Below are positions 5,707-49,832 of a DNA stretch of 52,825 nucleotides, piece after piece. The position numbers and the translations under genes were made by a program. Every line of letters starts with the position of its first letter. The stretch's first letter is position 1. The notes below the pieces were generated by a model that saw nothing but the letters and a program-made list of their open reading frames with translations, was not told where the DNA came from and ran no database searches. The stretch is from Bullifex porci (GTDB lineage: Bacteria; Spirochaetota; Spirochaetia; Sphaerochaetales; Sphaerochaetaceae). Location: NCBI RefSeq assembly GCF_009695635.1, contig NZ_VUNN01000017.1:1-52825 (forward strand). The letters are read 5' to 3'.

Positions 5707-5731
5707 GGGCTACAGAAATGTAGCCCTTTAT
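5707..5731 (+). terminator. Rho-independent terminator of the ABC importer operon
   Basis: A 7-bp stem GGGCTAC / GTAGCCC (5707-5713 with 5720-5726) with a 6-base loop is followed by TTTAT. It lies seven bases after the stop of the 149-residue protein gene. Confidence 0.75.
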
Positions 5732-5749: not shown

Positions 5750-5763
5750 TATAATTATCAGCT
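5750..5763 (+). promoter_or_regulatory. -10 box for a leaderless rpe transcript
   Basis: A perfect TATAAT (5750-5755) follows a T-tract and ends eight bases before the rpe ATG (5764). Transcription would begin within a base or two of the start codon. No Shine-Dalgarno sequence is present. No good -35 box is visible. Confidence 0.5.
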
Positions 5764-6426
5764 ATGATGAAATTAGCTCCTTCAATTCTTTCATGCAATT
5801 TTTCAAATGTTGCAAAAGCAGTATCACAGGTAGATGAATTAGGTCTTGAGTATTTACATTTAGATGTAATGGATGGAAGCTTTGTTCCAGAAATAACCTT
5901 TGGCGCAAAGCTGATTAAGGATATAAGAAGAAATACAAATATTACCTTCGATGTACATTTAATGGTTGAAAGACCTGAGGATAAGCTAGATGCCTTTATT
6001 GAGGCAGGAAGTGATATAATTACTGTTCATCAGGAAAGCACGATCCACCTTCATAGAGTTTTACAGAAAATTAAAAGTGCTGGAATAAAATGTGGAGTTT
6101 CGATTGTACCATCAACTCCAGTATCAATGATTTTACCAATACTTGATATGGTTGATTTAGTTCTTATTATGACTGTTAATCCTGGCTATGGTGGTCAAAA
6201 GCTAATACAGTCCTGCTTAGATAAGGTTGTAGAGCTTAGAGATATCAGAGAAAAGGAAGATTACACATATTTAATAAGTGTTGATGGTGGAGTAAATCTA
6301 TCAACAGTCCAGGATGTAGCAACAGCAGGTGCTGATTTAGCTGTCACAGGTTCAGCATTCTTTTTAAGTGAGGATAAGGCTGAATTTGTTAATAAGATGA
6401 ATGATTTAATTAGGAAATGTCAATGA
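5764..6426 (+). CDS. rpe: Ribulose-phosphate 3-epimerase
   Basis: A 220-residue TIM-barrel enzyme that interconverts ribulose 5-phosphate and xylulose 5-phosphate in the pentose phosphate pathway. Family motifs are present in order: PSILSCNF near the N-terminus, HLDVMDGSFVP (about 32-42, catalytic Asp), FDVHLMVERP (about 60-69), MTVNPGYGGQ (about 138-147) and VDGGVN (about 177-182, catalytic Asp). There is no ribosome-binding site; the -10 box just upstream implies a leaderless start at the first of two adjacent ATGs. The stop overlaps dtd (ATGA). It directly follows the ABC importer terminator, so it is a separate unit. Confidence 0.93.
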   Translation: MMKLAPSILSCNFSNVAKAVSQVDELGLEYLHLDVMDGSFVPEITFGAKLIKDIRRNTNITFDVHLMVERPEDKLDAFIEAGSDIITVHQESTIHLHRVLQKIKSAGIKCGVSIVPSTPVSMILPILDMVDLVLIMTVNPGYGGQKLIQSCLDKVVELRDIREKEDYTYLISVDGGVNLSTVQDVATAGADLAVTGSAFFLSEDKAEFVNKMNDLIRKCQ

Positions 6427-6901: not shown

Positions 6902-6919
6902 TATTATTAGCAGGAGATA
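6902..6919 (+). promoter_or_regulatory. recA -10 box and ribosome-binding site
   Basis: A T-tract leads into TATTAT (6902-6907), followed closely by the AGGAGA ribosome site. A TTGTAA at 6877-6882 could be the -35 box, although the 19-base spacing is long. No clear LexA-type dyad is visible here, so SOS control cannot be claimed. The same arrangement (T-tract, TATTAT, then AGGAGAT) precedes the 66-residue gene at 38365. Confidence 0.4.
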
Positions 6920-6927
6920 AAAAAATT

Positions 6928-7977
6928 ATGGAAAAAAATGAGAATGTAAAAAAGGCTAGGGCGGAAGCGCTTGAAGCAGCAAGAGCCCAAATCGACAAGC
7001 AATTTGGTAAAGGCTCACTCATGAGATTGGGAGATGCAAAAAATACTCTCGATATCGAAGCTATTCCATCTGGATCTCTCCTGCTCGACGAAGCTTTAGG
7101 AGTAGGTGGGTATCCAAAGGGAAGAATCATTGAGATTTATGGACCAGAAAGCTCAGGTAAAACAACCTTAGCTCTTCATGCAATTGCTGAGTGTCAAAAG
7201 AGTGGCGGAACAGCTGCATTTATTGATGCTGAGCATGCTCTTGATCCAACCTATGCAAAGAATTTAGGTGTAAATATCGATGATTTATGGATAAGCCAAC
7301 CAGACAATGGTGAACAGGCTCTAGAGATTACAGAATCTCTAGTACGCTCAGGTGCAGTTGATATTGTAGTTATTGACTCTGTAGCAGCTCTAACTCCTCA
7401 AGCAGAAATTGAAGGTGATATGGGTGATTCACACATGGGTGTACAGGCAAGACTTATGAGCCAGGCTTTAAGAAAGCTCACAGGTATTCTTGCAAAGAGC
7501 AATGCAACTATCATCTTTATCAACCAGCTAAGAATGAAGATTGGTGTAATGTTTGGTAACCCAGAAACAACTACAGGTGGTAATGCATTAAAGTTCTATG
7601 CATCTGTCAGAATGGATGTTAGAAAGATTGAATCTATCGGAAAGAGCCAGGATGAAATCGTTGGAAACCGTGTAAGAGTTAAAATTGTAAAGAATAAGGT
7701 TGCACCTCCATTTAAAAAGTGTGAAATTGATTTACTCTTTGGTAAAGGTATTTCCTACGTTGGCTCTATGCTTGATGCAGCATTAAAATATGAGCTTGTT
7801 GAGAAATCTGGTTCTTGGTTTAGCTATAATGGTGAGAAAATTGGACAAGGTAGAGATAAGACCTTAGATTATTTTACAAACAATCCTCAAATTACAGAGG
7901 AATTGGTAGCAAGTCTAAGAAAGCTAATGTTTAGTCATGATGAAGAAGAGAGCGCTCCAGCTCCTACAGAAGAGTGA
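6928..7977 (+). CDS. recA: RecA recombinase
   Basis: A 349-residue, full-length RecA: ATP-dependent strand exchange, recombinational repair and SOS co-protease. Walker A is GPESSGKT (72-79), Walker B is the VVIDSVAAL segment, and the conserved FINQLR (with [21 protein letters not shown] after it) forms L2 and DNA-binding surfaces. An acidic tail ([12 protein letters not shown]) ends the protein, as usual. Start fixed by AGGAGA ten bases upstream. The stop abuts scpA (TGATG), so recA leads the scpA-scpB-rluB-cmk-rpsA run. Confidence 0.97.
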
Positions 7978-10915: not shown

Positions 10916-10943
10916 CAAACGTAATTTTATAGGAGCAAAAGAA

Positions 10944-12638
10944 GTGGAAGATGAAACTCAGATGACTGACATGCAGTCATTACTGCAAGAGCAGTATCTA
11001 AAGTCACTTGCTGGCATTGAAGACGGTCAGATCGTAACCGGAACTGTTGTACAGTTAAATAACGACTATGTATTTGTAGATGTAGGCTACAAGAGCGAAG
11101 GAAAGATTCCTGTTGATGAATTTATCGAATTACCAAAGGTTGGTGATAAGGTAAATGTTGCTATCATTAACAAGGAAGGTAAGGGTGGTCAGGTCATCGT
11201 ATCAAAGAAGAAGGCCGATGCTAAGGAGAGAACAGAAGCTCTCAAGGAAGCAGCAGAAAACAGAACACCTATCCTTGGTAAGTTCTTAAAAGTAATCAAG
11301 GGCGGCTATGAGGTCGATCTTGGTGCAGATTATAGAGGTTTCTGCCCATTATCAAAGGCAGATGTTTCAAGAGTTGAAGATACTGATTCCTTAATTGGAA
11401 AGACAGATTACTTCATCATTGATAAGTTCCACTCAAGCACAAAGCTTAAGAGTGTAGTTTCAAGAAGAGAGTACCTAGAAGGTATCATCAAGGAGAACAA
11501 GGAAAAGTTCTTTAGTTCTGTTCAGATTGGTGATGTTGTTCAGGGTGAGGTTAAGAGCTTCACTTCATTTGGTGCTTTCATCGATCTCGGTGGTTTCGAT
11601 GGTCTTCTCCATATCAACGATATGTCTTGGGGCCATGTAACAAGACCAAAGGATTTTGTTAAGAAGGGTCAGGTTATCCAGCTCAGACTTATCAATGTTG
11701 ATCCAGAGACACAGAAGATTAACCTTTCTCTCAAGCACATGCAGGAAGATCCTTGGACTAACTTTGAACAGCGCTATAATGTTGGTGATGTTGTAAAAGC
11801 TCCAGTAACAAAGCTTACATCATTTGGTGTATTCATCGAAATTGAACCAGGTATCGAAGGTCTTGCTCACATTTCAGAGCTCTCATGGACTAAGAAGATT
11901 ACAAACCCTAAGGAAGTTTTAAACATTGGTGATGTAGTTGAAGCTAAGATTCTTGGTTATGACCTCGATAAGAAGAGAGTTTCACTTGGTCTTAAGCAGC
12001 TTTCTGAGAACCCATGGGATACTATTGAAGAAAGATACCCAGTTGGTAAGGTTCTAAAGGGTAAGGTTGTAAAGATCACAAATAGTGGTGCATTCGTAAA
12101 CCTTGAAGAAGGTATTGATGGTTTCTTACACATTGATGATGTATCTTGGGTTAAGAAGCTTAAGAATATGAGCCAGTTCTGTGCTGAAGGTGATGAAATT
12201 GATGTTGCTGTTTCAAGAGTTGAACCAGAAAACAGAAGAATCCGCCTTTCTGTAAAGAACCTTGAGGGTAACCCATGGCAGGCTCTTAGAAAGAATCACC
12301 CAAAGAATTCTATCATCACTGGTGAAATTTCAAACATCACAGACTTTGGTGTATTTGTAAAGGTTGATGGTGGTATTGAAGGTCTTATTAGCAAGTTCAA
12401 TCTTGTTGGTCCTGATCAGGAATTCGATGATAAGATTCTCGAGAACTACAAGGTTGGTGATTCAATCACAGCTATGGTTGTTGAAATCAATCCACAGACT
12501 CAGAAGCTCTCACTCTCAGTAAAAGAGATGATTAAGAAGAACCAGGAAAATGAGATGGCTAAGTACATGTCAAATTCTCAGGATGATTCAGATACTTTCT
12601 CTCTTGCTGATATGCTCAATGCAAAGAAAGAGAACTAA
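10944..12638 (+). CDS. rpsA: 30S ribosomal protein S1
   Basis: A 564-residue S1 protein with six OB-fold S1 repeats, starting near residues 22, 108, 193, 278, 365 and 452. They are visible as recurring blocks such as GDVVQGEVKSFTSFGAFIDL, and GIEGLAHISELSW. The protein holds mRNA at the ribosome for initiation. The GTG start is chosen because AGGAGC lies seven bases upstream, and the next ATGs are too far. Codon use is strongly biased, consistent with high expression. Because S1 matters most on mRNAs with leaders, its presence is worth reading alongside the leaderless genes in this window. A GC-rich hairpin follows. Confidence 0.95.
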   Translation: MEDETQMTDMQSLLQEQYLKSLAGIEDGQIVTGTVVQLNNDYVFVDVGYKSEGKIPVDEFIELPKVGDKVNVAIINKEGKGGQVIVSKKKADAKERTEALKEAAENRTPILGKFLKVIKGGYEVDLGADYRGFCPLSKADVSRVEDTDSLIGKTDYFIIDKFHSSTKLKSVVSRREYLEGIIKENKEKFFSSVQIGDVVQGEVKSFTSFGAFIDLGGFDGLLHINDMSWGHVTRPKDFVKKGQVIQLRLINVDPETQKINLSLKHMQEDPWTNFEQRYNVGDVVKAPVTKLTSFGVFIEIEPGIEGLAHISELSWTKKITNPKEVLNIGDVVEAKILGYDLDKKRVSLGLKQLSENPWDTIEERYPVGKVLKGKVVKITNSGAFVNLEEGIDGFLHIDDVSWVKKLKNMSQFCAEGDEIDVAVSRVEPENRRIRLSVKNLEGNPWQALRKNHPKNSIITGEISNITDFGVFVKVDGGIEGLISKFNLVGPDQEFDDKILENYKVGDSITAMVVEINPQTQKLSLSVKEMIKKNQENEMAKYMSNSQDDSDTFSLADMLNAKKEN

Positions 12639-16089: not shown

Positions 16090-16124
16090 TTGATTACCAT
16101 TTATTCTATGGCTAGAATAACCAC
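16090..16124 (+). promoter_or_regulatory. Promoter giving a leaderless mazG transcript
   Basis: TTGATT (16090-16095), a 17-base spacer and TAGAAT (16113-16118) form a good sigma-70 promoter. Six bases then separate it from the mazG ATG, so the predicted transcription start is the A of the start codon. There is no Shine-Dalgarno sequence. Confidence 0.6.
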
Positions 16125-16940
16125 ATGGTTAACTATAATTTTAATAAAGCAACAAACACAAAAGATGCATTTCAGAATCTATATGATATTGTAACAATAT
16201 TAAGAAGTGAAAATGGATGTCCATATGATAAAGCACTTCATAATAAGGATTCTCTTGCAAGCTTATTAGATGAAGCTTATGAGTATTTAGAGGGTGCTAA
16301 TAATAATGATGTATCATCTTGTAGAGAAGAAATTGGTGATGTTTTTATTAATGCTATGATGATTCTCCGTATACATGAAGAGCAAAAAGACTTTACTCCA
16401 TATGATGCAATAAATGATGTATGTGAAAAGCTCATTAGAAGGCACCCACATGTATTTTCTGATGTTGTAGTACATAATATGGAGGAAGGGTTAAAGTCCT
16501 ATTACAGTGTTAAAGAAAATGTAGAAAAGAAGGCTGCTGACCCTATTTCTAAGCTAGATCATATACCTCACTCTCTTCCACCTCTAGAGAGAAGCTACGA
16601 GATACAGAAAAAGCTTTCAAAGGTTGGCTTTGATTGGCCAAATGTTGATGGTGTTATTGATAAGGTATATGAGGAGCTAGATGAAGTTATATTAGCCTTA
16701 AAGCATAAGGATAATGATAATCTTGAAGAAGAAATTGGGGATCTATTTTCAGCTGTAATTAACCTAGCTAGATTTGTACATGTTAATCCTGCTTTTGCTA
16801 TTGCAAGAGCTAATGAAAAGATAACTAATCGCTTTAAGGCAGTATTTCAGCTTGCAAAGGAGCGTGGTATTACCATTGATAAAGACCATGTCGATGAAAT
16901 GAATTTATTATGGGATGAAGTAAAGCTTAGAGGTATGTAA
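16125..16940 (+). CDS. mazG: MazG nucleoside triphosphate pyrophosphohydrolase
   Basis: A 271-residue two-domain MazG that hydrolyses (d)NTPs to NMP and pyrophosphate, a house-cleaning and stringent-response-related activity. Domain 1 has the LRSENGCPYDKA segment (wild-type form LR...GCPWD) and the metal-binding helices LLDEAYEYLEG and CREEIGDVF (E-x-x-E ... E-x-x-D). Domain 2 repeats this as VYEELDEVILAL and LEEEIGDLFSAVINLAR. Length matches the full-length family. The start is leaderless (see promoter). Its last 14 bases overlap the end of the convergent lipoprotein gene. Confidence 0.93.
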   Translation: MVNYNFNKATNTKDAFQNLYDIVTILRSENGCPYDKALHNKDSLASLLDEAYEYLEGANNNDVSSCREEIGDVFINAMMILRIHEEQKDFTPYDAINDVCEKLIRRHPHVFSDVVVHNMEEGLKSYYSVKENVEKKAADPISKLDHIPHSLPPLERSYEIQKKLSKVGFDWPNVDGVIDKVYEELDEVILALKHKDNDNLEEEIGDLFSAVINLARFVHVNPAFAIARANEKITNRFKAVFQLAKERGITIDKDHVDEMNLLWDEVKLRGM

Positions 16941-17703
16941 GCCTTAGCTTTACTTCCTCTGGATAGCTTTTATATGCATTAGACCAATAGCTACGAGCCA
17001 GGCTGTAATCATTTTCATAGAAATATATATCACCAATAGCTAAGGCTAATGCATCATTAGATGAATTATAATGCTTAATAGCAAGATTAAGTAGCATGCT
17101 ACCCTCACCTCTTTCATTAAGCACATTTATCGCTTGAGTTAAGATAGAATCAAAATCCTCATCATATGCTTCATCTAAATCACGTAGCTCACTTACTATT
17201 AGCTCTGATGAGGCTTTGCCATTAATTAGCATCATGCATCTAGCCTTATTTGAAAGAGCTACTTTACTTTCAGCATAAATTATATCTGCTTCCTGATAAT
17301 CCTCAGTTCTCATAAGAGCTGTAAAGTATGCATTCATCTCAGCTTCTGATAAGGTATAATACTTTTTCATTATATGACCAGCAAAGCATTTTTCTGCATC
17401 ATTAGAATAAAATAGTAATATTCTTAATGCATCACGTAATCTCTGATCCTGAACACTATTATAGCAAGCTACATATAAACGAGCAGAAGGTAAAGAATCA
17501 TCTATGTAACCAAGCTTAAAGTGGCTCATAAATTGATAGTAAATTGCATCTTGATTAAGCTTATGAGATAGATCCTCATTTGCATGTTCTATTACTAAGT
17601 CATAGCTACCAGCTTCATAGCTAGCTTTGTAATCAAAGCTTTTAAAGCAAGAGGATAAAAGAAAAGAGATAAGAATGAGTATAGAAATAATTCTAAGTTT
17701 CAC
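16927..17703 (-). CDS. Predicted TPR-like lipoprotein
   Basis: A 258-residue protein with a lipoprotein signal (hydrophobic core then LLSSC, Cys at about residue 19). The rest is alpha-helical with repeated A/Y/L patterns (for example DALALAIGDIYFYENDYSLARSY near the C-terminus), resembling degenerate TPR repeats. The start is GTG: GGAGG lies six to eight bases upstream, and an overlapping ATG is immediately followed by TGA. Lies just downstream of rnpB on the same strand and may be read from that transcript. Confidence 0.75.
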   Translation of the reverse strand: MKLRIISILILISFLLSSCFKSFDYKASYEAGSYDLVIEHANEDLSHKLNQDAIYYQFMSHFKLGYIDDSLPSARLYVACYNSVQDQRLRDALRILLFYSNDAEKCFAGHIMKKYYTLSEAEMNAYFTALMRTEDYQEADIIYAESKVALSNKARCMMLINGKASSELIVSELRDLDEAYDEDFDSILTQAINVLNERGEGSMLLNLAIKHYNSSNDALALAIGDIYFYENDYSLARSYWSNAYKSYPEEVKLRLTYL

Positions 17704-18917: not shown

Positions 18918-21341
18918 TCAAACGTAATCTTTTAATTTTCTACTTCGTTTAGGGTGGCGTAGTCTTCTCAAAGCCTTAGCTTCGATCTGACGAATACGTT
19001 CACGTGTAACATCAAAATACAACCCAACTTCTTCAAGTGTCAATGGATATCCATCGTCAAGACCAAATCTCATGCGAAGGACCTCCTGCTCACGAGCAGG
19101 TAGAGTTGTAAGAACATCTTTAATTTGCTCCTGTAAAAGAACATATGCAGTCTGATTAGCTGGGTTCTCAACATCCTTATCCTCGATGAAGTCAGAAAGT
19201 AAGCTATCTTCCTCCTCACCAACCGGTGTTTCAAGAGAAATTGGTTCACGAGAAACGTTCTTAACAGCCTTAACCTTCTTTTCATCCCATCCGAGGCGCT
19301 CTGCAATTTCTGCATCGGTCGGCTCTCTACCTAAGGACTGTAATAGAGATCTAGACTCTCTTACAACCTTGTTAATCTGCTCAATCATGTGTACTGGAAC
19401 ACGGATTGTTCTAGCTTGGTCAGAAATAGAACGAGTAATAGCCTGTCTAATCCACCAGGTTGCATATGTAGAGAACTTAAAGCCCTTTCTATATTCAAAC
19501 TTCTCAACTGCCTTAATAAGACCAATATTACCCTCTTGTACAAGATCAAAGAAGTGTAAGCCTCTATTGGTATATTTTTTAGCAATTGATACTACAAGTC
19601 TAAGGTTAGCCTTAATGAGACGGTCCTTAGCATCCTTCATCATCTTCTGACCACTCTTGATAGTCTTAACGTTATCAAGAATCTTTTGAGTACCAGTTCT
19701 AAGCTCCTTAGTTGGATTATTTGGGTCAAAACGATCATCAAAGGATTCAAACTCATAGCATATCTGCTTTAGCTTCTTTTCAGTTATCTGAAGCTCTTTA
19801 ATATCCTGCTTAATCTCATCGGCACTAAGACCAAGACGCTCTTCAATTCCAGCAACCTTACTTCTTGTTGCAAGATCACGTCCAAGCTGTCTTAATTCCT
19901 TTGCGATATCACCATCACTAGCGATTTGAAGCTTACGAGTTAAAATTCTATTTTTATCTGTACATTCTTTAATAAAATCAGCAGCTTGAATAAATTTTTC
20001 AGTAAGCTCATCAATTTCTTCCTGCTGAATTACCATAGGATAGTACCAAATAGGAACATATGTACTGTTCTCAGAAACCTGCTTAACAGCCTCTTCATAT
20101 GCTTCATCAACCTCTAAAGCTGCAGAGATACCATCTTCTTCGTTTTCTACAAATTCCTCACCCTCAGCACCTTCTATTACCTCCTCTGAAGAAGCAAAAA
20201 TAGAGGACTCATTTTTATCGATGATATTTGCCTTCTTGACAATCATCTTATTGCCATAAGGGTTTGTAATCTTTACATATTCATTTAACTCATATTCCTT
20301 AAGGTCCTTTACATCAACACCAAGGAACTTAGCTAAATCCTTTTTATTATCATCATCAAAGAATTCAACGTCATCAAGCTTAACCTCAAAGCCACCGAGG
20401 TATAGCTTCATTAACTCATCTCTCTTCTTGTTGAATCTTTCATCATTAATTAATTCTTCACCTGTAAGAATTGCTTTTTGGATTTGGTCGTTATAATCCT
20501 TTAAATATTTGTTAGCGACCTTAAGACCTTCCTTATAGTTTGAAGAGTAGTGCTTTTGCTTACTAATTAAATTCTTAAGCTCTTCAGGAGAGATAGAATC
20601 ATCATCCTCATCGATTTTTGTTGAAATCTGCTGATAGATTTTTGTGTACATAGAGATAAGTACACCACTCTCTCTAATAACAGAACGAATTACTTCATCT
20701 CCAGATTCCATCTGCTTAGAAAGAGTTACTTCCTGAGCTGCATCGAGCAAATTCTCTTTACCAATCTCACGAAGATATAATCTAATAGGGTCATCACCAC
20801 TTGTTTCACCCTTATCAGAGCCTAAGATAGTATGACTTCTTTCATGGTCATGTGAATCACTAATCTGTGAGATATCTACATATTGCTCAGATGAGCCTAC
20901 ATGCTCATCCTCAGATGACCAAGATGAAATAGTAGGTGCATCATTATCAACATCTTCCTCTTCATCGTAGTCTTCATCATCGTCATCATCGTGGGATATT
21001 TCAGTTGAAGCATCACTAGGCTCTGGGATAGCATACTCATCTTCATGGTTCTCATCTCCAAGATCCTCTTCTAAGAATGAATCATCTAGATCATCCCCAC
21101 CTTCCTCTAATACTTCAGCTGTAGGTTCATCACTATTAACTTCGCTTTCATCCTCATGATATTCAATTCCATTATCACTAAGCTCAGCGATGAGATCATC
21201 AATTTCATTGGATATCTTATTTAATTCATCCTCACTCATTTTTAAGAGTGCATTTATATCCTTTTTTAGAATATACCCACCCCTCTCTATGCTCTTCTTT
21301 GTGAGTTCTTTAATTAAAAGATTCCTTGTTTCTTCATTCAT
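18918..21341 (-). CDS. rpoD: Primary sigma factor RpoD (sigma-70)
   Basis: An 807-residue housekeeping sigma factor, much longer than typical (about 600). Residues 1-60 resemble region 1.1; 62-182 is an extended, very acidic, low-complexity linker; region 1.2 starts near 183 ([14 protein letters not shown]). A large non-conserved region with a further acidic block ([15 protein letters not shown]) covers about 230-560. Region 2 ([30 protein letters not shown]), region 3 ([20 protein letters not shown]) and region 4 ([19 protein letters not shown]) are normal. The start overlaps the dnaG stop by eight bases, so the two are coupled. Confidence 0.95.
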
Positions 21342-24418: not shown

Positions 24419-24867
24419 ACTTTAGTTCCTTCTACATATGCCTTCATCTTCTCAAAGCTTTCTTGGTTCTCATAGACATATCTTTCGACAATAGACCAAG
24501 AGCCATTTTCATCCTTTTCAAGTAAAGCAAAGGTACCTCTACCTATGTAGCTAATTGTTTGGTTTTCATGAACACTATGATTTTTCTTAAGATCCTCTAG
24601 GACACAATCAAAATGGACAAATGAGCCATCAGGATTAATCATAGCTTGAGAAATATTATGAATAGTCTCACCACAGATAGAACAGCTAACTAATGGCTCT
24701 TTAATTATCTTAGCTGGGCTAACTTGTAGCTTAGATTTATATGGATGTGGCTTAGGAACCCCTGACACCTGATTCAGTGTAGCAAACCCTGTGAGCTTTG
24801 AATCATCACATTTCTTCTTTTCTTTTTTCTTTAATTCCTTTTTTGGGAAGTTATTTTTTGCTTTCAT
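24415..24867 (-). CDS. Small zinc-finger-like protein upstream of coaD, function unknown
   Basis: A 150-residue protein with a very basic N-terminus (KKELKKKEKKK) and a probable zinc site: CSICGE, then a short beta hairpin, then HFDC (C-x2-C ... H-x2-C) near residues 62-86. The C-terminus is RGTFALLEKDENGSWSIVER-like. I do not recognise the family. The start is taken at 24867: TATAAT (24879-24874) ends six bases before this ATG, indicating a leaderless message. Earlier in-frame starts (ATG 24873, GTG 24903) lie in the promoter and in the rplS terminator. It overlaps coaD by four bases. Confidence 0.72.
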   Translation of the reverse strand: MKAKNNFPKKELKKKEKKKCDDSKLTGFATLNQVSGVPKPHPYKSKLQVSPAKIIKEPLVSCSICGETIHNISQAMINPDGSFVHFDCVLEDLKKNHSVHENQTISYIGRGTFALLEKDENGSWSIVERYVYENQESFEKMKAYVEGTKV

Positions 24868-24873
24868 ACCCAT

Positions 24874-24904
24874 ATTATAAAAAAAAGGTGACAAATTTGC
24901 CACC
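24874..24904 (-). terminator. rplS terminator merged with the next gene's -10 box
   Basis: The hairpin 24887-24904 (arms GGTGGCAAA / TTTGTCACC, almost palindromic) is followed on the minus strand by eight T, a strong intrinsic terminator for the ffh-rplS operon. TATAAT (24879-24874) begins at the end of the T-run and appears to serve as the -10 box of the next gene, with a weak TGGCAA -35 inside the terminator stem. Confidence 0.75.
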
Positions 24905-24926
24905 CTTAGAAAAATTAGTTATAGAC

Positions 24927-31312: not shown

Positions 31313-31349
31313 TTGACTATCTATCGAGATAAAATTTAACATTTTTGAA
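31313..31349 (+). promoter_or_regulatory. Promoter giving a leaderless rnhB transcript
   Basis: TTGACT (31313-31318), an 18-base spacer and TAACAT (31337-31342) on the plus strand. Seven bases separate it from the rnhB ATG at 31350, so transcription should start at or just before the start codon. The -35 box lies only 15 bases from the divergent smc start codon. Confidence 0.5.
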
Positions 31350-31991
31350 ATGGAAATGGAAGAATTATTCTCTTTTAATGAGGTGTTAACAATTTGTGGG
31401 ACAGATGAAGCAGGTAGAGGTCCTTTAGCAGGACCTGTAACAGCCGCTGCTGTAGTTTTGCCAAAGGATTTTCCATTTGAAATTTTAGCTGATAGCAAAA
31501 AATTATCTCATAATAAATTAATTGAAGCAGAAAAGGTAATAAGAGAAAAAGCAGTAGCATTTTCAATCTCATTTATTTCTAATGAAGAAATAGATGAAAT
31601 AAATATTTTAAATGCAGCATTAAAGGCTATGGCAAACTCCTATAAAGAGGTTAATAAAATAATTCATGTCGATAAGCTAATGGTCGATGGAAATCGTTCC
31701 CCTAGAAAGTTTATTGAGGATTCAAGCCTTGCTATTGAAACTGTTGTTAAGGGTGACTCAAAGATTCATGAGATAATGGCTGCAAGTATATTAGCTAAAA
31801 CTGCTAGAGATAGATTTATGGAATCACTTGATAAGGAATATCCTCAATATGGATTTTCTAAAAATAAAGGATATCCATCTAAAGAGCATCAAGAGGCGAT
31901 AATCAAATATGGATTATCGCCTTATCATAGAAAAACCTTTCATCTAAAGAATGTAAAAATTAAAGAAGAGCAAGACTTATTCCCATTATAA
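31350..31991 (+). CDS. rnhB: Ribonuclease HII
   Basis: A 213-residue enzyme that cuts RNA in RNA-DNA hybrids and removes single ribonucleotides from DNA. Motif 1 is CGTDEAGRGPLAGPV (catalytic D and E, residues about 16-30); HVDKLMVDG holds the next Asp; HEIMAAASILAKTARD-like segment (here IMAASILAKTARD) holds the fourth. No ribosome site; a leaderless start is proposed at the first ATG, with a second in-frame ATG two codons later. Its last 32 bases overlap the convergent zupT gene. Confidence 0.94.
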   Translation: MEMEELFSFNEVLTICGTDEAGRGPLAGPVTAAAVVLPKDFPFEILADSKKLSHNKLIEAEKVIREKAVAFSISFISNEEIDEINILNAALKAMANSYKEVNKIIHVDKLMVDGNRSPRKFIEDSSLAIETVVKGDSKIHEIMAASILAKTARDRFMESLDKEYPQYGFSKNKGYPSKEHQEAIIKYGLSPYHRKTFHLKNVKIKEEQDLFPL

Positions 31992-33113: not shown

Positions 33114-33142
33114 AAAATACTCTAATTCTCGATTAATGTCAA
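33114..33142 (-). promoter_or_regulatory. Promoter of tRNA-Gly
   Basis: TTGACA (33142-33137), exactly 17 bases, then TATTTT (33119-33114) on the minus strand, 13 bases before the tRNA 5' end. The region around the -10 (TTAGAGTATTTTCTTT) closely matches that of tRNA-Thr. Confidence 0.75.
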
Positions 33143-33147
33143 CAATA

Positions 33148-33186
33148 CTGGCAAAAAAAATCTCATTTGCTTATACTTTACCAATC
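33148..33186 (+). promoter_or_regulatory. Promoter giving a near-leaderless M29-like transcript
   Basis: CTGGCA (33148-33153), an 18-base spacer and TATACT (33172-33177), ending nine bases before the ATG at 33187. The predicted leader is about three bases. No Shine-Dalgarno sequence is present. The promoter lies back to back with that of tRNA-Gly. Confidence 0.45.
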
Positions 33187-34347
33187 ATGAATAACATTGA
33201 GCAAAAATATGCAGAATTCATTTTAAATGAAGAATTAAGAATTGAAGGTGGTGAAAAGCTTACAATTAACGCCAATGAAGAAACAATAGCCTTTGCACAT
33301 TTACTTGCACATATGGCAGCTGAAAAGACAGGTGTAAATGTACAAATTGTTTTTATTGATCACGGTAAGGTTGAATCTGTTGATGAAATAGAACCAGACT
33401 TTCAGGAAAAGGCAAGTGGTAAGGTTTGTATGCTCCACCTAGCCTCCTTCCCTAGCTTCTCACCTCTTAATGATGAAAATAAAGAGCTAAGTGCTAAGGA
33501 GCTTGGAGAGTATAGAGTTATAAGCGAGCCAGTAATCGCAGGAAGAAGAGTCGCAGTACCTTGGGCTATTTGCTATGTACCAACTCCAGCTTGGGCAGAG
33601 TTTGTTTTTGGTCCAGGAGCTACTACAGACTCCTTGTGGCTTTTACTTTCCGATATATTAAAGCTTGATAGCGAAGATAATTCACTAAGAATGCAGCATC
33701 AAATATTAAAAAATAGATGCGCAAAGCTAAATAATGCAAATATTACTCAACTAATTTTAAAGAGTAATAGCTGTGACCTAAAGCTTGATATCAACCAGGA
33801 ATTACACCTAGCAACAACCTCAACAATGCTTTCATCTGGAAGATTATTCTACCCTACAGCACCTTGCGAGGAAGTAATAATTCCACTTTCAAAGCATAGT
33901 GGCTCTGGTAAATTTATAACTACATACCCATTTAGACTCTTCGATAGAGTATTTAGCTCAGCAGAGGTTTCTATTGAAAATGGTAAAGTAGTATCATTTA
34001 AGGTTGAGGATGGAACAACTCATATAACAAAGTATTTAAGCATCGATGAAGAGAGTAAATGCTTAAGTGAGCTTATACTTTGTGATGGCTACACTCCTTC
34101 CTCAAAGCTAGAGGTTTCAACTGGTATTCCAATGCTTGATAGAATGCGCACTACCTCCTTAGTCTTAGGAGGAATTACACCAGATACACTTCAAGCTGAG
34201 AGCGATGAGGATATAGATAAAACAATTATAAATAATTCCTTTGTTCGTTTAGAGCTTCCATTAGGTTCAAAGGATTTATCTATTCAAGGTATTACAGAAT
34301 TTGGTGAGATTATAGATATCATGGAGGATGGTATAATACTATTCTAG
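33187..34347 (+). CDS. M29 aminopeptidase homologue, probably inactive
   Basis: A 386-residue relative of M29 metallo-aminopeptidases (AmpS/PepS/aminopeptidase T). The fold pieces match the neighbouring paralogue along the length (for example VPTPAWAEFVFG against VPGPKWAKQLLG). Of the metal and catalytic ligands, two glutamates remain (E229 and E295), but the first histidine is replaced by S324, the tyrosine by I330, and the H-x-D pair by R354-L-E356. It is therefore probably a pseudo-enzyme, perhaps a partner of the intact copy downstream. ATG 33187 is chosen over 33136, because the promoter overlaps the longer start and the homologous region begins at MNNIEQKYAEF. The next gene follows after eight bases. 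Confidence 0.8.
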   Translation: MNNIEQKYAEFILNEELRIEGGEKLTINANEETIAFAHLLAHMAAEKTGVNVQIVFIDHGKVESVDEIEPDFQEKASGKVCMLHLASFPSFSPLNDENKELSAKELGEYRVISEPVIAGRRVAVPWAICYVPTPAWAEFVFGPGATTDSLWLLLSDILKLDSEDNSLRMQHQILKNRCAKLNNANITQLILKSNSCDLKLDINQELHLATTSTMLSSGRLFYPTAPCEEVIIPLSKHSGSGKFITTYPFRLFDRVFSSAEVSIENGKVVSFKVEDGTTHITKYLSIDEESKCLSELILCDGYTPSSKLEVSTGIPMLDRMRTTSLVLGGITPDTLQAESDEDIDKTIINNSFVRLELPLGSKDLSIQGITEFGEIIDIMEDGIILF

Positions 34348-34355
34348 GAGGAAAT

Positions 34356-35579
34356 ATGAACAAAAACTATTCAGATAAATTAAATGAGCTAGTATTAACT
34401 AAGGGTGTGTGCTTAAAAAAGGGAGAAAAGCTTTGTATTAATACCTCCCCTTCCTGCTATAGCTATGCACAGGCTATGGCAAAGCGTGCATATGAGCTTG
34501 GAGCTAAATATGTAATTATTAATATTAATGATGGTGATTTAGATTCCTTTAGAACATTAGTTCAAGATAGCGATGAGGTGTCATTTGTTCCAGATTTCTA
34601 TAGATACAATGCTATGGAAAGAGCTAAGGATAGCTACGTTAACGTTCGCTTAGATAGTAATGAGGATAGAATTGGACAAACTCAAGGTGATAGCGATAAG
34701 CTAGCTAAGCTTAATATGTCCTTTAGAAAAGCTGGTAAGGTCGCAAGTGATAGATATATGTCAAATGAGCTTGCTTGGTGCGTATCCTGTGTCCCTGGTC
34801 CAAAGTGGGCAAAGCAGCTTCTTGGTGAAAATGCAACAGAGGATGATTTAGCTAATGTACTAGGAAAGATACTACTCTTTGATAATGAGAATTATCTCTC
34901 AGCCTGGGATGAATTTGATAAAAAGGTTAAAGAGAGAAGAGAAAAGCTAAACTCATTAAATATTGTAAAGCTACACTATAAATCCTCAATTACAGATTTT
35001 ACTATTAGCTTAACAAGCGATGCTCATTTTGAGGGTGGCGCATCAATTTGTGATGATGGTAAGGTCTTCTTCCCTAATCTTCCAACAGAGGAGCTATTTA
35101 CTACTCCTGATATGTACTCTGCAGATGGATATATTACAACAACTAGACCTGTAAATGTATTAGGTCAGCCTACAAAAGCAATTACATTTACATTTAAAGA
35201 AGGAAGAGTTGTTGATGTTAAAGCTGAGGAAGGCTTAGAGATTATCAAAAAGTATTTAGCAATAGATGAAGGTGCTTCAAGGATTGGAGAGGTTGCTTTA
35301 GTTGATAACAATTCACCAATTAGTAAAACTAATTTAATCTTTAATTCAATATTAATCGATGAAAATGCATCATGTCATATAGCCTTAGGAGCAGGATATC
35401 CTGAGTGTATTAGTGGAAGTAGTAGTGCTAAAACAGATGAGGAGCTACATGAGTTAAAGATAAATACTTCATTGATGCATACAGACTTTATGGTAGGAAG
35501 TAGTGACCTAACAATTACAGCTACTACAAGTGATAATAAAGAGGTTGTAATTATGGAAAACGGCTCCTTTACTCTCTAA
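34356..35579 (+). CDS. M29-family aminopeptidase
   Basis: A 407-residue metallo-aminopeptidase that removes N-terminal residues from peptides using two metal ions, in the cytoplasm. The ligands expected from aminopeptidase T (E250, E316, H345, H376, D378) are found at E246, E312, H341, H375 and D377, and the catalytic tyrosine at Y348 (CHIALGAGY; MHTDFMVGSSD). GGAGG precedes the ATG. Eight bases separate it from its ligand-less paralogue, so the two are co-expressed. A terminator follows. Confidence 0.9.
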   Translation: MNKNYSDKLNELVLTKGVCLKKGEKLCINTSPSCYSYAQAMAKRAYELGAKYVIININDGDLDSFRTLVQDSDEVSFVPDFYRYNAMERAKDSYVNVRLDSNEDRIGQTQGDSDKLAKLNMSFRKAGKVASDRYMSNELAWCVSCVPGPKWAKQLLGENATEDDLANVLGKILLFDNENYLSAWDEFDKKVKERREKLNSLNIVKLHYKSSITDFTISLTSDAHFEGGASICDDGKVFFPNLPTEELFTTPDMYSADGYITTTRPVNVLGQPTKAITFTFKEGRVVDVKAEEGLEIIKKYLAIDEGASRIGEVALVDNNSPISKTNLIFNSILIDENASCHIALGAGYPECISGSSSAKTDEELHELKINTSLMHTDFMVGSSDLTITATTSDNKEVVIMENGSFTL

Positions 35580-40089: not shown

Positions 40090-42006
40090 TCAGATAGACC
40101 CCGGTCCCGTTGAGTTCCAATGGATTGTACAGGAGACAGATGCATTTGCAAACAGGGGGCTTTCTGGCTGGTTGACGTAGATGTTGGTAAGTCTGTTGCA
40201 ATTTTCGAATGCAGAGCCTCCGATTTCCGTGACACTTGACGGAATCGTGATACTGGTCAGGCCGGTGCAACCATAGAACGCTTTCTCTCCGATTGACTTG
40301 ACACCTTCCGGAATCGTGACGTTGGTTAGCCCGACGCAACTATAGAACGCAGAGCTTCCGATTGACGTGACACTTGCCGGAATCGTGATACTGGTCAATC
40401 CGGTGCAACCAGAGAACGTAGAGTCTTCGATCGAAGTAACACCTTCAGGAATCGTGATACTGGTCAATCTGGTACTATCAGCAAACGCATAGCTTCCGAT
40501 TGAAGTAACACCTTCAGGAATCGTGATACTGGTCAGGCTGGTGCAAGCAGAGAACGCGAAGCTTCCGATTGACTTGACACTTGCCGGAATCGTGATACTG
40601 GTCAGGCTGGTGCAAGCAGAGAACGCGAAGCTTCCGATTGACTTGACACTTGCCGGGATCGTTATACTGGTCAATTTGGTGCAACTAAAGAACGCACCGT
40701 TTTCGATTGACGTTACACTTGACGGAATCGTGATACTGGTCAGGCCGGTACAGTGACTGAACGCAGAGGTTCCGATTGACGTGACGCCTTCCGGAATCGT
40801 AATACTGGTCAGGCCGGTACAGTTCCAGAATGCAGCGCTTGCGATTGACGTGACACCATCCACAAGCCTTACTGAAGCAAGAGTCGTGTTCTCAGTTTCG
40901 GAATAGTCTACTGTTGCTGTCTTACCCCACCATGCCTCAGTCGCACCGGATGTATTCAGGTCCGCGCTTGTAGTTACAGTTATGGGTACCAGTCCAAGGT
41001 CCGACGCCTTGTACCGTCCCTGACTATCAGGTGTAGCGGAAGTGTAGATTGTGTACGGATACGTGATCGGAGTCTGGTCGCCAAGCGCATTCTCCGCATA
41101 TCCGACTACAATTGCGTTATCAGCAACGGTATCAGGATAGATGTCAAAGACACTGTTGAACACCTTCCAGATGACGTTGTCCTCTACTGTTCCTTCCGGC
41201 TTGCTTCCGTTGACCGTTAACTTGACCACGTCCATTGAGATTGTTGCCGTAGTCGTAGTGTGCATGTCGGTCATGATAAGTGTCGTCGCAGTGCCTGCAT
41301 CACCGAAAGGCGTTCCATCGTCATCAAGGTAGTCGACGGTGATCGTTGCGATGCCGTTGTCGACGTTGGTGAACACAGCCGCTTTGCTTGCATCCGTATC
41401 GGTCTCATCGAAGGAAAGGGTGACGGTCTGGTCGAATTTACCGCTCTGGAGCCTTACCGTAGCCTTCTTGCTGACGCCTGCATAGGCTTCATCGAATGTG
41501 ACATTAACGGTACAGGACCCCTTTCCCGTATTGTTTGTGAACTTCAGGGGTACATCCGCGGTAACTGCAAGCACAGTAGAGCCGTTTCCTACGCTGAAAT
41601 TGTCGAGCTTGCCGTTTAATATCGCCTTTGTGTTTTCCGTCTCCGCCATCCCCGCCTCAGTCCTTGCCTCAGCTGTAGCGAAGCCACGCAGGAATATGTT
41701 CCATACGCCTCTGCCCAGCTTCAGGGTATATCCAAGGCCGGGGCGTTCCGAAAGGTTGGTCCATCCTTCGGTCTGTCCGATCGTGATGCCGCTCACGTGC
41801 TCCGCCTTATACTGGAAATAGACGTTCTCTATAAGTACGGAGTCGACGCTTCCTGAACTGACGGTAGTCGTCCTGGCTTTAAGGTTCTGGAACACGACAT
41901 TGACCGTATCCGCTGTATCTTTGAATAAAGAACCCGGCGCCTCACATGACACGACCAACAACATGGTCGCCATCAGCATCACCATTAACTTCTTCATTTG
42001 CTTCAT
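40090..42006 (-). CDS. BspA-like leucine-rich-repeat lipoprotein
   Basis: A 638-residue surface lipoprotein: lipobox LVVSC with Cys at residue 21, a beta-rich region of about 350 residues, then ten 23-residue LRR_5 repeats (consensus LTSITIPEGVTSIGSSAF..C), and a short C-terminal tail. BspA/TpLRR proteins on oral and gut bacteria bind host proteins or other bacteria; that role is only inferred here. Start supported by AAAGGAG seven bases upstream. GC content and codon choice (GTC, GAC, TCC, CGT) are unlike the AT-rich neighbours, indicating transfer. It is the last of a minus-strand set with the genes at 42158 and 43246, separated from the former by about 150 bases. Confidence 0.9.
   Translation of the reverse strand: MKQMKKLMVMLMATMLLVVSCEAPGSLFKDTADTVNVVFQNLKARTTTVSSGSVDSVLIENVYFQYKAEHVSGITIGQTEGWTNLSERPGLGYTLKLGRGVWNIFLRGFATAEARTEAGMAETENTKAILNGKLDNFSVGNGSTVLAVTADVPLKFTNNTGKGSCTVNVTFDEAYAGVSKKATVRLQSGKFDQTVTLSFDETDTDASKAAVFTNVDNGIATITVDYLDDDGTPFGDAGTATTLIMTDMHTTTTATISMDVVKLTVNGSKPEGTVEDNVIWKVFNSVFDIYPDTVADNAIVVGYAENALGDQTPITYPYTIYTSATPDSQGRYKASDLGLVPITVTTSADLNTSGATEAWWGKTATVDYSETENTTLASVRLVDGVTSIASAAFWNCTGLTSITIPEGVTSIGTSAFSHCTGLTSITIPSSVTSIENGAFFSCTKLTSITIPASVKSIGSFAFSACTSLTSITIPASVKSIGSFAFSACTSLTSITIPEGVTSIGSYAFADSTRLTSITIPEGVTSIEDSTFSGCTGLTSITIPASVTSIGSSAFYSCVGLTNVTIPEGVKSIGEKAFYGCTGLTSITIPSSVTEIGGSAFENCNRLTNIYVNQPESPLFANASVSCTIHWNSTGPGSI
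40192..40881 (-). repeat. Ten tandem 69-bp units encoding the LRR repeats
   Basis: Ten in-frame 69-bp units (23 codons each). Units 4 and 5 (40537-40674) encode identical peptides and differ at only a few bases if any, so they look like a recent duplication. The array can gain or lose units by recombination without breaking the frame. Confidence 0.9.
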
Positions 42007-49012: not shown

Positions 49013-49820
49013 CCTTAACACCTTCCCTCTTTGATATTTGATAGATAATAACTGCACCAACGATAAAAGCTATTATAGAAAGTGGAATTTCCCATCCAAT
49101 TGGTGTACCAGGATAGATTGGGAATACCGATCCAATTAAAAAGCCTAAGATAATTAAATATGTAACCTCTGGATATTTGCTCATGCAAATATCTAAGACC
49201 TTAGTTAATAGAATTACTCCAATACAAAAGCCAAGGCCAAATGGAATTAATACAATAATATTTAATGTACTAATAGCACTCATAATAAACTCATAGGAGC
49301 CTAATATTAATAATAGATAAGAGAAGCTAATACCTGGTAAAATAAATCCTACAGCAACAATAATTCCAATTAAGCACTGTGTTAAAGCTAAAGAAGCTGT
49401 AAAAGGAGCAGCTGGATCAAACTCTAGCTTTGGAATTAATTGACAGCTTAAAACAACTATAATTCCTATAATAAAATAAAGTAAATCCAAGAAACTAAAT
49501 TCCTTTATTTGAGCCTTTTTATAAAGCATTGGAACAGAACCAAATACAAGTCCAATAAAGAAGAACATAGCTATTCTAGGAAATCTATCTATTACTCCTA
49601 ATATTGGCTTTGCGCACAATACAATTCCAATTAAAGCAAAAATAGAAAACTGAATAAGAAATTTTAAATTATTCTTTATATCCTTAAAAAAGGAACTAAC
49701 AGCAGTAATTAATTTACCATAAATTCCTAATACCATTGCCATTGACCCACCGGATACACCAGGGACCATCATGGTTGAACCAATTATAAAGCCTTTAATT
49801 ATTGTGTCTAATGAAAACAT
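48999..49820 (-). CDS. DUF368 family membrane protein
   Basis: A 273-residue inner-membrane protein with about eight helices. The DUF368 signature GSTMMVPGVSGGSMAMVLGIY is near the N-terminus, and its internal echo GFILPGISFSYLLLILGSY is about 130 residues later. Some DUF368 proteins have been reported as undecaprenyl-phosphate translocases (PopT-type), which recycle the cell-wall lipid carrier; I infer the same possibility here. Start at ATG 49820: TATATT (49832-49827) ends six bases upstream and no ribosome site is present, suggesting a leaderless message. A longer start (49862) falls in the upstream terminator. Confidence 0.85.
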   Translation of the reverse strand: MFSLDTIIKGFIIGSTMMVPGVSGGSMAMVLGIYGKLITAVSSFFKDIKNNLKFLIQFSIFALIGIVLCAKPILGVIDRFPRIAMFFFIGLVFGSVPMLYKKAQIKEFSFLDLLYFIIGIIVVLSCQLIPKLEFDPAAPFTASLALTQCLIGIIVAVGFILPGISFSYLLLILGSYEFIMSAISTLNIIVLIPFGLGFCIGVILLTKVLDICMSKYPEVTYLIILGFLIGSVFPIYPGTPIGWEIPLSIIAFIVGAVIIYQISKREGVKDASM

Positions 49821-49826
49821 ATAATG

Positions 49827-49832
49827 AATATA
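49827..49832 (-). promoter_or_regulatory. -10 box for a leaderless DUF368-tldD transcript
   Basis: TATATT on the minus strand (49832-49827), exactly six bases before the ATG at 49820. There is no good -35 box; T-rich terminator sequence occupies that place. No Shine-Dalgarno sequence. Confidence 0.4.

Follow-up and report, generated by a model that had tools for sequence, protein, structure and literature searches.

Among spirochaetes, the mixture of leaderless and Shine-Dalgarno (SD)-led genes has been described in Leptospira interrogans, where dRNA-seq gave about 440 mRNAs whose leader is shorter than 10 nt, with 184 primary starts that coincide with the start codon at 30 C (PMC5243855). 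TA-led genes, which have a promoter-like motif a short way upstream of the start codon, were found by Zheng et al. (2011) in 6 of 18 Spirochaetes genomes, at an average of 3.9% of the genes (1.8-6.9) (PMC3160421). Leaderless and SD-led genes are mixed in one bacterium also in Mycobacterium (M. tuberculosis, PMC3898074) and in Deinococcus (D. deserti, cited in PMC5243855), two systems from different phyla that have a higher leaderless usage and were mapped experimentally. Thus, since such genes were already known from the spirochaete genomes of Zheng et al. and from the mRNAs of L. interrogans, the coexistence of the two modes in a spirochaete is not new; the literature searched for Sphaerochaeta together with leaderless contained no earlier report of leaderless genes in Sphaerochaetaceae.

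The DNA analysed here, referred to as the window, is the 52,825-nucleotide contig C9 of Bullifex porci (Sphaerochaetaceae), from a 2.42-Mb assembly of 67 contigs that is 96.7% complete. As in L. interrogans, candidate starts at or near start codons occur beside SD-led genes, and as in the TA-led genes of Zheng et al. a promoter-like motif lies close before the start codon. L. interrogans belongs to a distant order and its starts were mapped by experiment, with RpoN (sigma-54) elements identified and other motifs largely not in the relevant parts of that study (PMC5243855), whereas in B. porci the -10 and -35 elements are clear and the starts are predicted from sequence. The best explanation, to which a probability of roughly 0.88 is given, is that the class consists of leaderless genes, with an mRNA that would start at the A of the ATG or 1-3 nt from it, beside an SD-led majority. 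What is new is a strong demonstration, at the level of sequence, of predicted leaderless genes in Sphaerochaetaceae, together with their higher estimated share, their conservation gene by gene and the correction of the rnhB start.

The first-pass annotation had pointed to six genes of the window with a -10-like box shortly before the ATG, no SD sequence and a position at the head of their unit. On re-reading of the sequence, all six boxes and start codons lie where it had placed them (Table 1; gap here denotes how many bases separate the -10 hexamer from the ATG). None of the six genes has an SD match of 4 or more bases, and by the same measure recA and rpsA are SD-led, as had been proposed. 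The position as first gene holds as well: mazG, rnhB and the M29 gene are divergent from their upstream neighbour, which for M29 is a tRNA-Gly gene facing away, while a terminator hairpin precedes rpe, the zinc-finger-like gene and DUF368. Pfam matches confirm the identity of rpe, mazG, RNase HII, the M29 peptidase and DUF368; the zinc-finger-like gene has no match in Pfam.

Table 1. Coordinates of the candidate leaderless starts, of two SD-led comparison genes and of rpoD in the window
Feature	Position	Strand	Elements
rpe	5750..5766	+	TATAAT 5750-5755, gap 8, ATG 5764; terminator-like hairpin 5707-5726 upstream; Pfam PF00834
mazG	16090..16127	+	TTGATT-17-TAGAAT, gap 6, ATG 16125; PF03819
zinc-finger-like gene	24865..24907	-	rplS terminator 24907-24884, TATAAT 24879-24874, gap 6, ATG 24867
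rnhB	31313..31358	+	TTGACT-18-TAACAT; ATG 31350 gap 7; ATG 31356 gap 13; PF01351
first M29 peptidase	33172..33189	+	TATACT 33172-33177, gap 9, ATG 33187
DUF368 (PF04018, undecaprenyl phosphate translocase-like)	49818..49832	-	TATATT 49832-49827, gap 6, ATG 49820; terminator hairpin upstream
recA, SD-led comparison	6905..6930	+	AGGAG before ATG 6928
rpsA, SD-led comparison	10931..10946	+	TAGGAGC, then GTG 10944
rpoD, housekeeping sigma factor that should recognise these promoters	18918..21341	-	

Two further features of the window can be recorded here. The M29-type metallopeptidase genes form a tandem pair (33187-35579), of which the first has the candidate leaderless start and the second is preceded by a strong SD (AGGAGG); a tandem M29 pair is present also in G010 and G017. 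The gene for a leucine-rich-repeat, PARCEL-like surface protein (40090-42006, minus strand) contains a tandem array of 9.4 copies of a 69-bp unit at 40207-40856.

Within the window, TAnnnT stands at gap 6-9 in 7 of 13 non-SD, non-internal genes (p 0.004), one of the seven, the gene at 17529, looking like a mis-called start; this window-only test is far weaker than that on the genome sample. The latter covered about 850 kb (35% of the genome, window included), with genes called by a home-made dicodon model that uses the coding signal alone and is blind to the upstream sequence. The first-pass annotation had asked for the spacing to be compared with AT-rich background, and in this 35% of the genome the excess is strong: divergent first genes without SD have TAnnnT at gap 6-8 in 62 of 115 cases, against 16.5 expected from shifted windows (p 4e-23). 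No excess is seen at this spacing in SD-led first genes (3/99) or in operon-internal genes (11/269). At gap 6 alone, 37 of 218 genes with an upstream neighbour facing away carry the motif (about 12 at other positions); operon-internal genes have no peak, with 4 of 290. TAnnnT is otherwise distributed fairly evenly over the positions upstream of the start, and it is in the genes with a neighbour facing away that it rises sharply at gap 6 and then at gap 7.

An unsupervised EM search recovered the same signal, giving TATnAT (T.88 A.79 T.52 n A.64 T.89) in the non-SD first genes, with gap 6 in 37% and gap 7 in 17%, and AGGAGG at gaps 5-8 in the operon-internal genes; on shuffled sequence it yielded nothing comparable. 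The excess is thus confined to non-SD first genes and SD-led initiation dominates in operon-internal genes, therefore the two modes would coexist in one spirochaete, as had been suggested from the window; the predicted leaderless class is made up nearly entirely of first genes. Background-corrected sample counts give an estimate of about 75 leaderless genes out of 709 (about 10%), corresponding to about a quarter of the divergent first genes; the spirochaete average of Zheng et al. is 3.9% (PMC3160421).

It could be objected that TAnnnT near an ATG is frequent in AT-rich intergenic DNA and that the six genes are a reader's selection. Indeed, chance background in this genome amounts to about 14% for three positions and about 18% for four, and roughly a third of the individual candidates outside the six (30/95) may be false by chance. 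Moreover, TATAAT-6-ATG counted over the whole genome without restriction is only modestly raised (62 vs 39, with reversed controls at 56-63), because the genome is AT-rich; such crude pattern counts are weak here and serve only for a test across the family. However, positions 10-18, which belong to the same SD-excluded zone, have about 5 matches each, compared with 36 at gap 6, and the peak persists in relatives of 46-53% GC, together with the -35 and -1 signatures and the orthologue conservation described below. Chance is already refuted for the class as a whole, and as a general account it is very improbable.

The genes with a gap of 6 and no SD have TTG at -35 to -33 (T.83 T.70 G.39), i.e. 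at a 17-nt spacer, and a pyrimidine at -1 in 42 of 46 cases (91%), compared with 53% of SD genes; neither feature had been used in their selection. In the gap 6-8 set, 47% have a -35 match at spacers of 16-18, whereas wrong spacers give 13-18%. Of the 95 genes of this set 93 start with ATG, a figure to be read with the 94% ATG of the SD genes and with a start calling that favours ATG. The traits of bacterial leaderless (TA-led) genes, namely a -10 near the start, absence of SD and first-gene position, are all present, and the gap-6 set has a complete sigma-70 promoter with the -35 at about 17 nt. Because of the TTG at -35 and the pyrimidine at -1, the A of AUG is the most likely transcription start in the gap-6 class.

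Position, anatomy and conservation of these promoters are apparent in the DNA itself; the exact transcription start and a direct use of the 5' AUG by the ribosome are inferred from what is established for leaderless mRNAs in other bacteria. RpoD (sigma-70) holoenzyme would bind the -35 (TTGnnn) and -10 (TAtnaT) elements, whose placement would set transcription to start on, or 1-3 nt from, the A of the ATG; the resulting mRNA would have no 5' leader, and the ribosome would bind the 5'-terminal AUG directly. The RpoD of the window has 807 aa and carries a long acidic stretch at its N-terminal end; PRK05658, the model of its family, covers about 630 positions.

The same promoters might instead produce leaders of about 4-20 nt, with initiation through S1 or an unstructured leader rather than at a 5'-terminal AUG. 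Such a leader would suit the gaps of 8-9 in some of the B. porci genes, the further 126 non-internal genes with neither SD nor close -10, and an rpsA that encodes five S1 domains; rnhB, considered below, is a case in point. The dominant gap of exactly 6, with the pyrimidine at -1 and the TTG at -35 counted from the A of the ATG, has instead the geometry of a start at A, so that short leaders are improbable as the general rule, though less so than chance.

The comparison with relatives used 120-200 kb from each of seven genomes. The signal recurs in G005, G012, G036, G017 and G060; the same excess over a much lower background is found in two genomes of the same genus at 46-47% GC, in two family members at 50-53% GC and in the class member G060 at 49% GC, and therefore it is no artefact of AT-richness. 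No clear signal came from the few genes of two further class members, G043 and G059, whose first genes are too few for judgement. Of 60 related genomes, 47 have more TATAAT-6-ATG than TATAAT-12-ATG (Wilcoxon p 2e-8). The respective counts are 31/8 in G023 and 39/7 in G028, both of the family, and 46/17 in G046, 22/0 in G047 and 45/8 in G055 of the class; these five genomes suggest that other lineages use leaderless starts heavily.

Among 117 orthologues of the six genes, taken at an identity of at least 42%, 57 carry a -10 at gap 6-8, where 8.8 would be expected. The signal is present in DUF368 (9/11 vs 0.3 expected), where two orthologues are flagged as SD-led despite a TATATT at gap 7, the SD score counting short GTGAT matches; it is present in 5 of 8 close M29 orthologues (0.45 expected), in 16 of 27 for mazG (3.2 expected), the others being SD-led, and in 4 of 16 for the zinc-finger-like gene. 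For rpe, 16 of 29 orthologues carry it (1.6 expected). The TAnnnT pattern is blind to extended -10 promoters that lack the final T, among them the TGcTACAAC and TGgTAGAAG that precede rpe in class relatives, and best-single-site scoring of rpe is confounded in B. porci and L194 by an additional TATAA run upstream. The rpe layout is found in further families of the class, and several of the distant ones have an apparent extended -10 (TGnTAnAA) at gap 6-7. Orthologues of five of the six genes conserve the predicted leaderless signal, with rnhB (7/26) as the exception. Some mazG and M29 orthologues have a normal SD instead, which implies that genes switch their initiation mode.

The coding-only model misplaced some starts, calling rpe at 5767, the zinc-finger-like gene at 24873 and M29 at 33136, an upstream ATG that its ORF does not need, and a real shift of start is seen in rnhB. 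Errors of this kind could mean that the true starts lie downstream, behind an SD-containing leader, and that the boxes are ordinary promoters; however, protein alignments of rpe, mazG, M29 and DUF368 orthologues start at the ATGs of Table 1 or only a few codons away, in relatives with the same -10 spacing, and a general mis-calling is hardly probable.

In rnhB, 13 relatives have a TTGAC...TAnCAT promoter 13 nt before the conserved ATG, and one more has it at 14 nt. The conserved start corresponds to ATG 31356 of the window, while ATG 31350, present here, is absent in the nearest relative. The conserved start thus lies outside gap 6-8 and rnhB is probably not strictly leaderless; from the position of the promoter in the relatives a leader of about 6 nt is likely, and rnhB probably starts at ATG 31356 with this very short leader and no SD. 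The proposal that all six transcripts begin at, or within about three bases of, the ATG stands for five genes, which are assigned to the predicted leaderless class, and gives way to the probable short leader in rnhB.

Leaderless starts also appear to allow terminator, promoter and start codon to be packed into 50-70 nt. Before the zinc-finger-like gene, the T-tract of the rplS intrinsic terminator runs into the -10 hexamer, with the ATG 6 nt on, and the same layout is found in the relatives L302 and L303. In co-directional genes located 35-150 nt after their neighbour, a recognisable terminator precedes 10 of 22 with the leaderless signature versus 18 of 65 SD genes, and in the former the stem often ends 14-34 nt before the ATG. 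Similarly, the spacer of divergent pairs has a median of 67 nt when both genes look leaderless (eight pairs), compared with 166 nt when neither does. Joints like that of rplS and the zinc-finger-like gene recur elsewhere in the genome.

Across much of the class Spirochaetia, leaderlessness may further be a second mode of initiation that is conserved and gene-specific, and not a scattered trait: in rpe, most of 29 genomes of many families keep a promoter at the position for a leaderless start, and M29 and mazG would have switched between leaderless and SD within one genus; this broader reading is tentative, at slightly less than even odds. SD-assuming gene callers will misplace such starts, and the M29, zinc-finger-like and DUF368 ORFs do have longer alternatives. 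The signature would tell where these proteins start and which genes may answer to conditions that favour leaderless translation, while orthologues that are predicted to be leaderless in some members of the family and SD-led in others offer a natural set for asking why the mode differs by gene.
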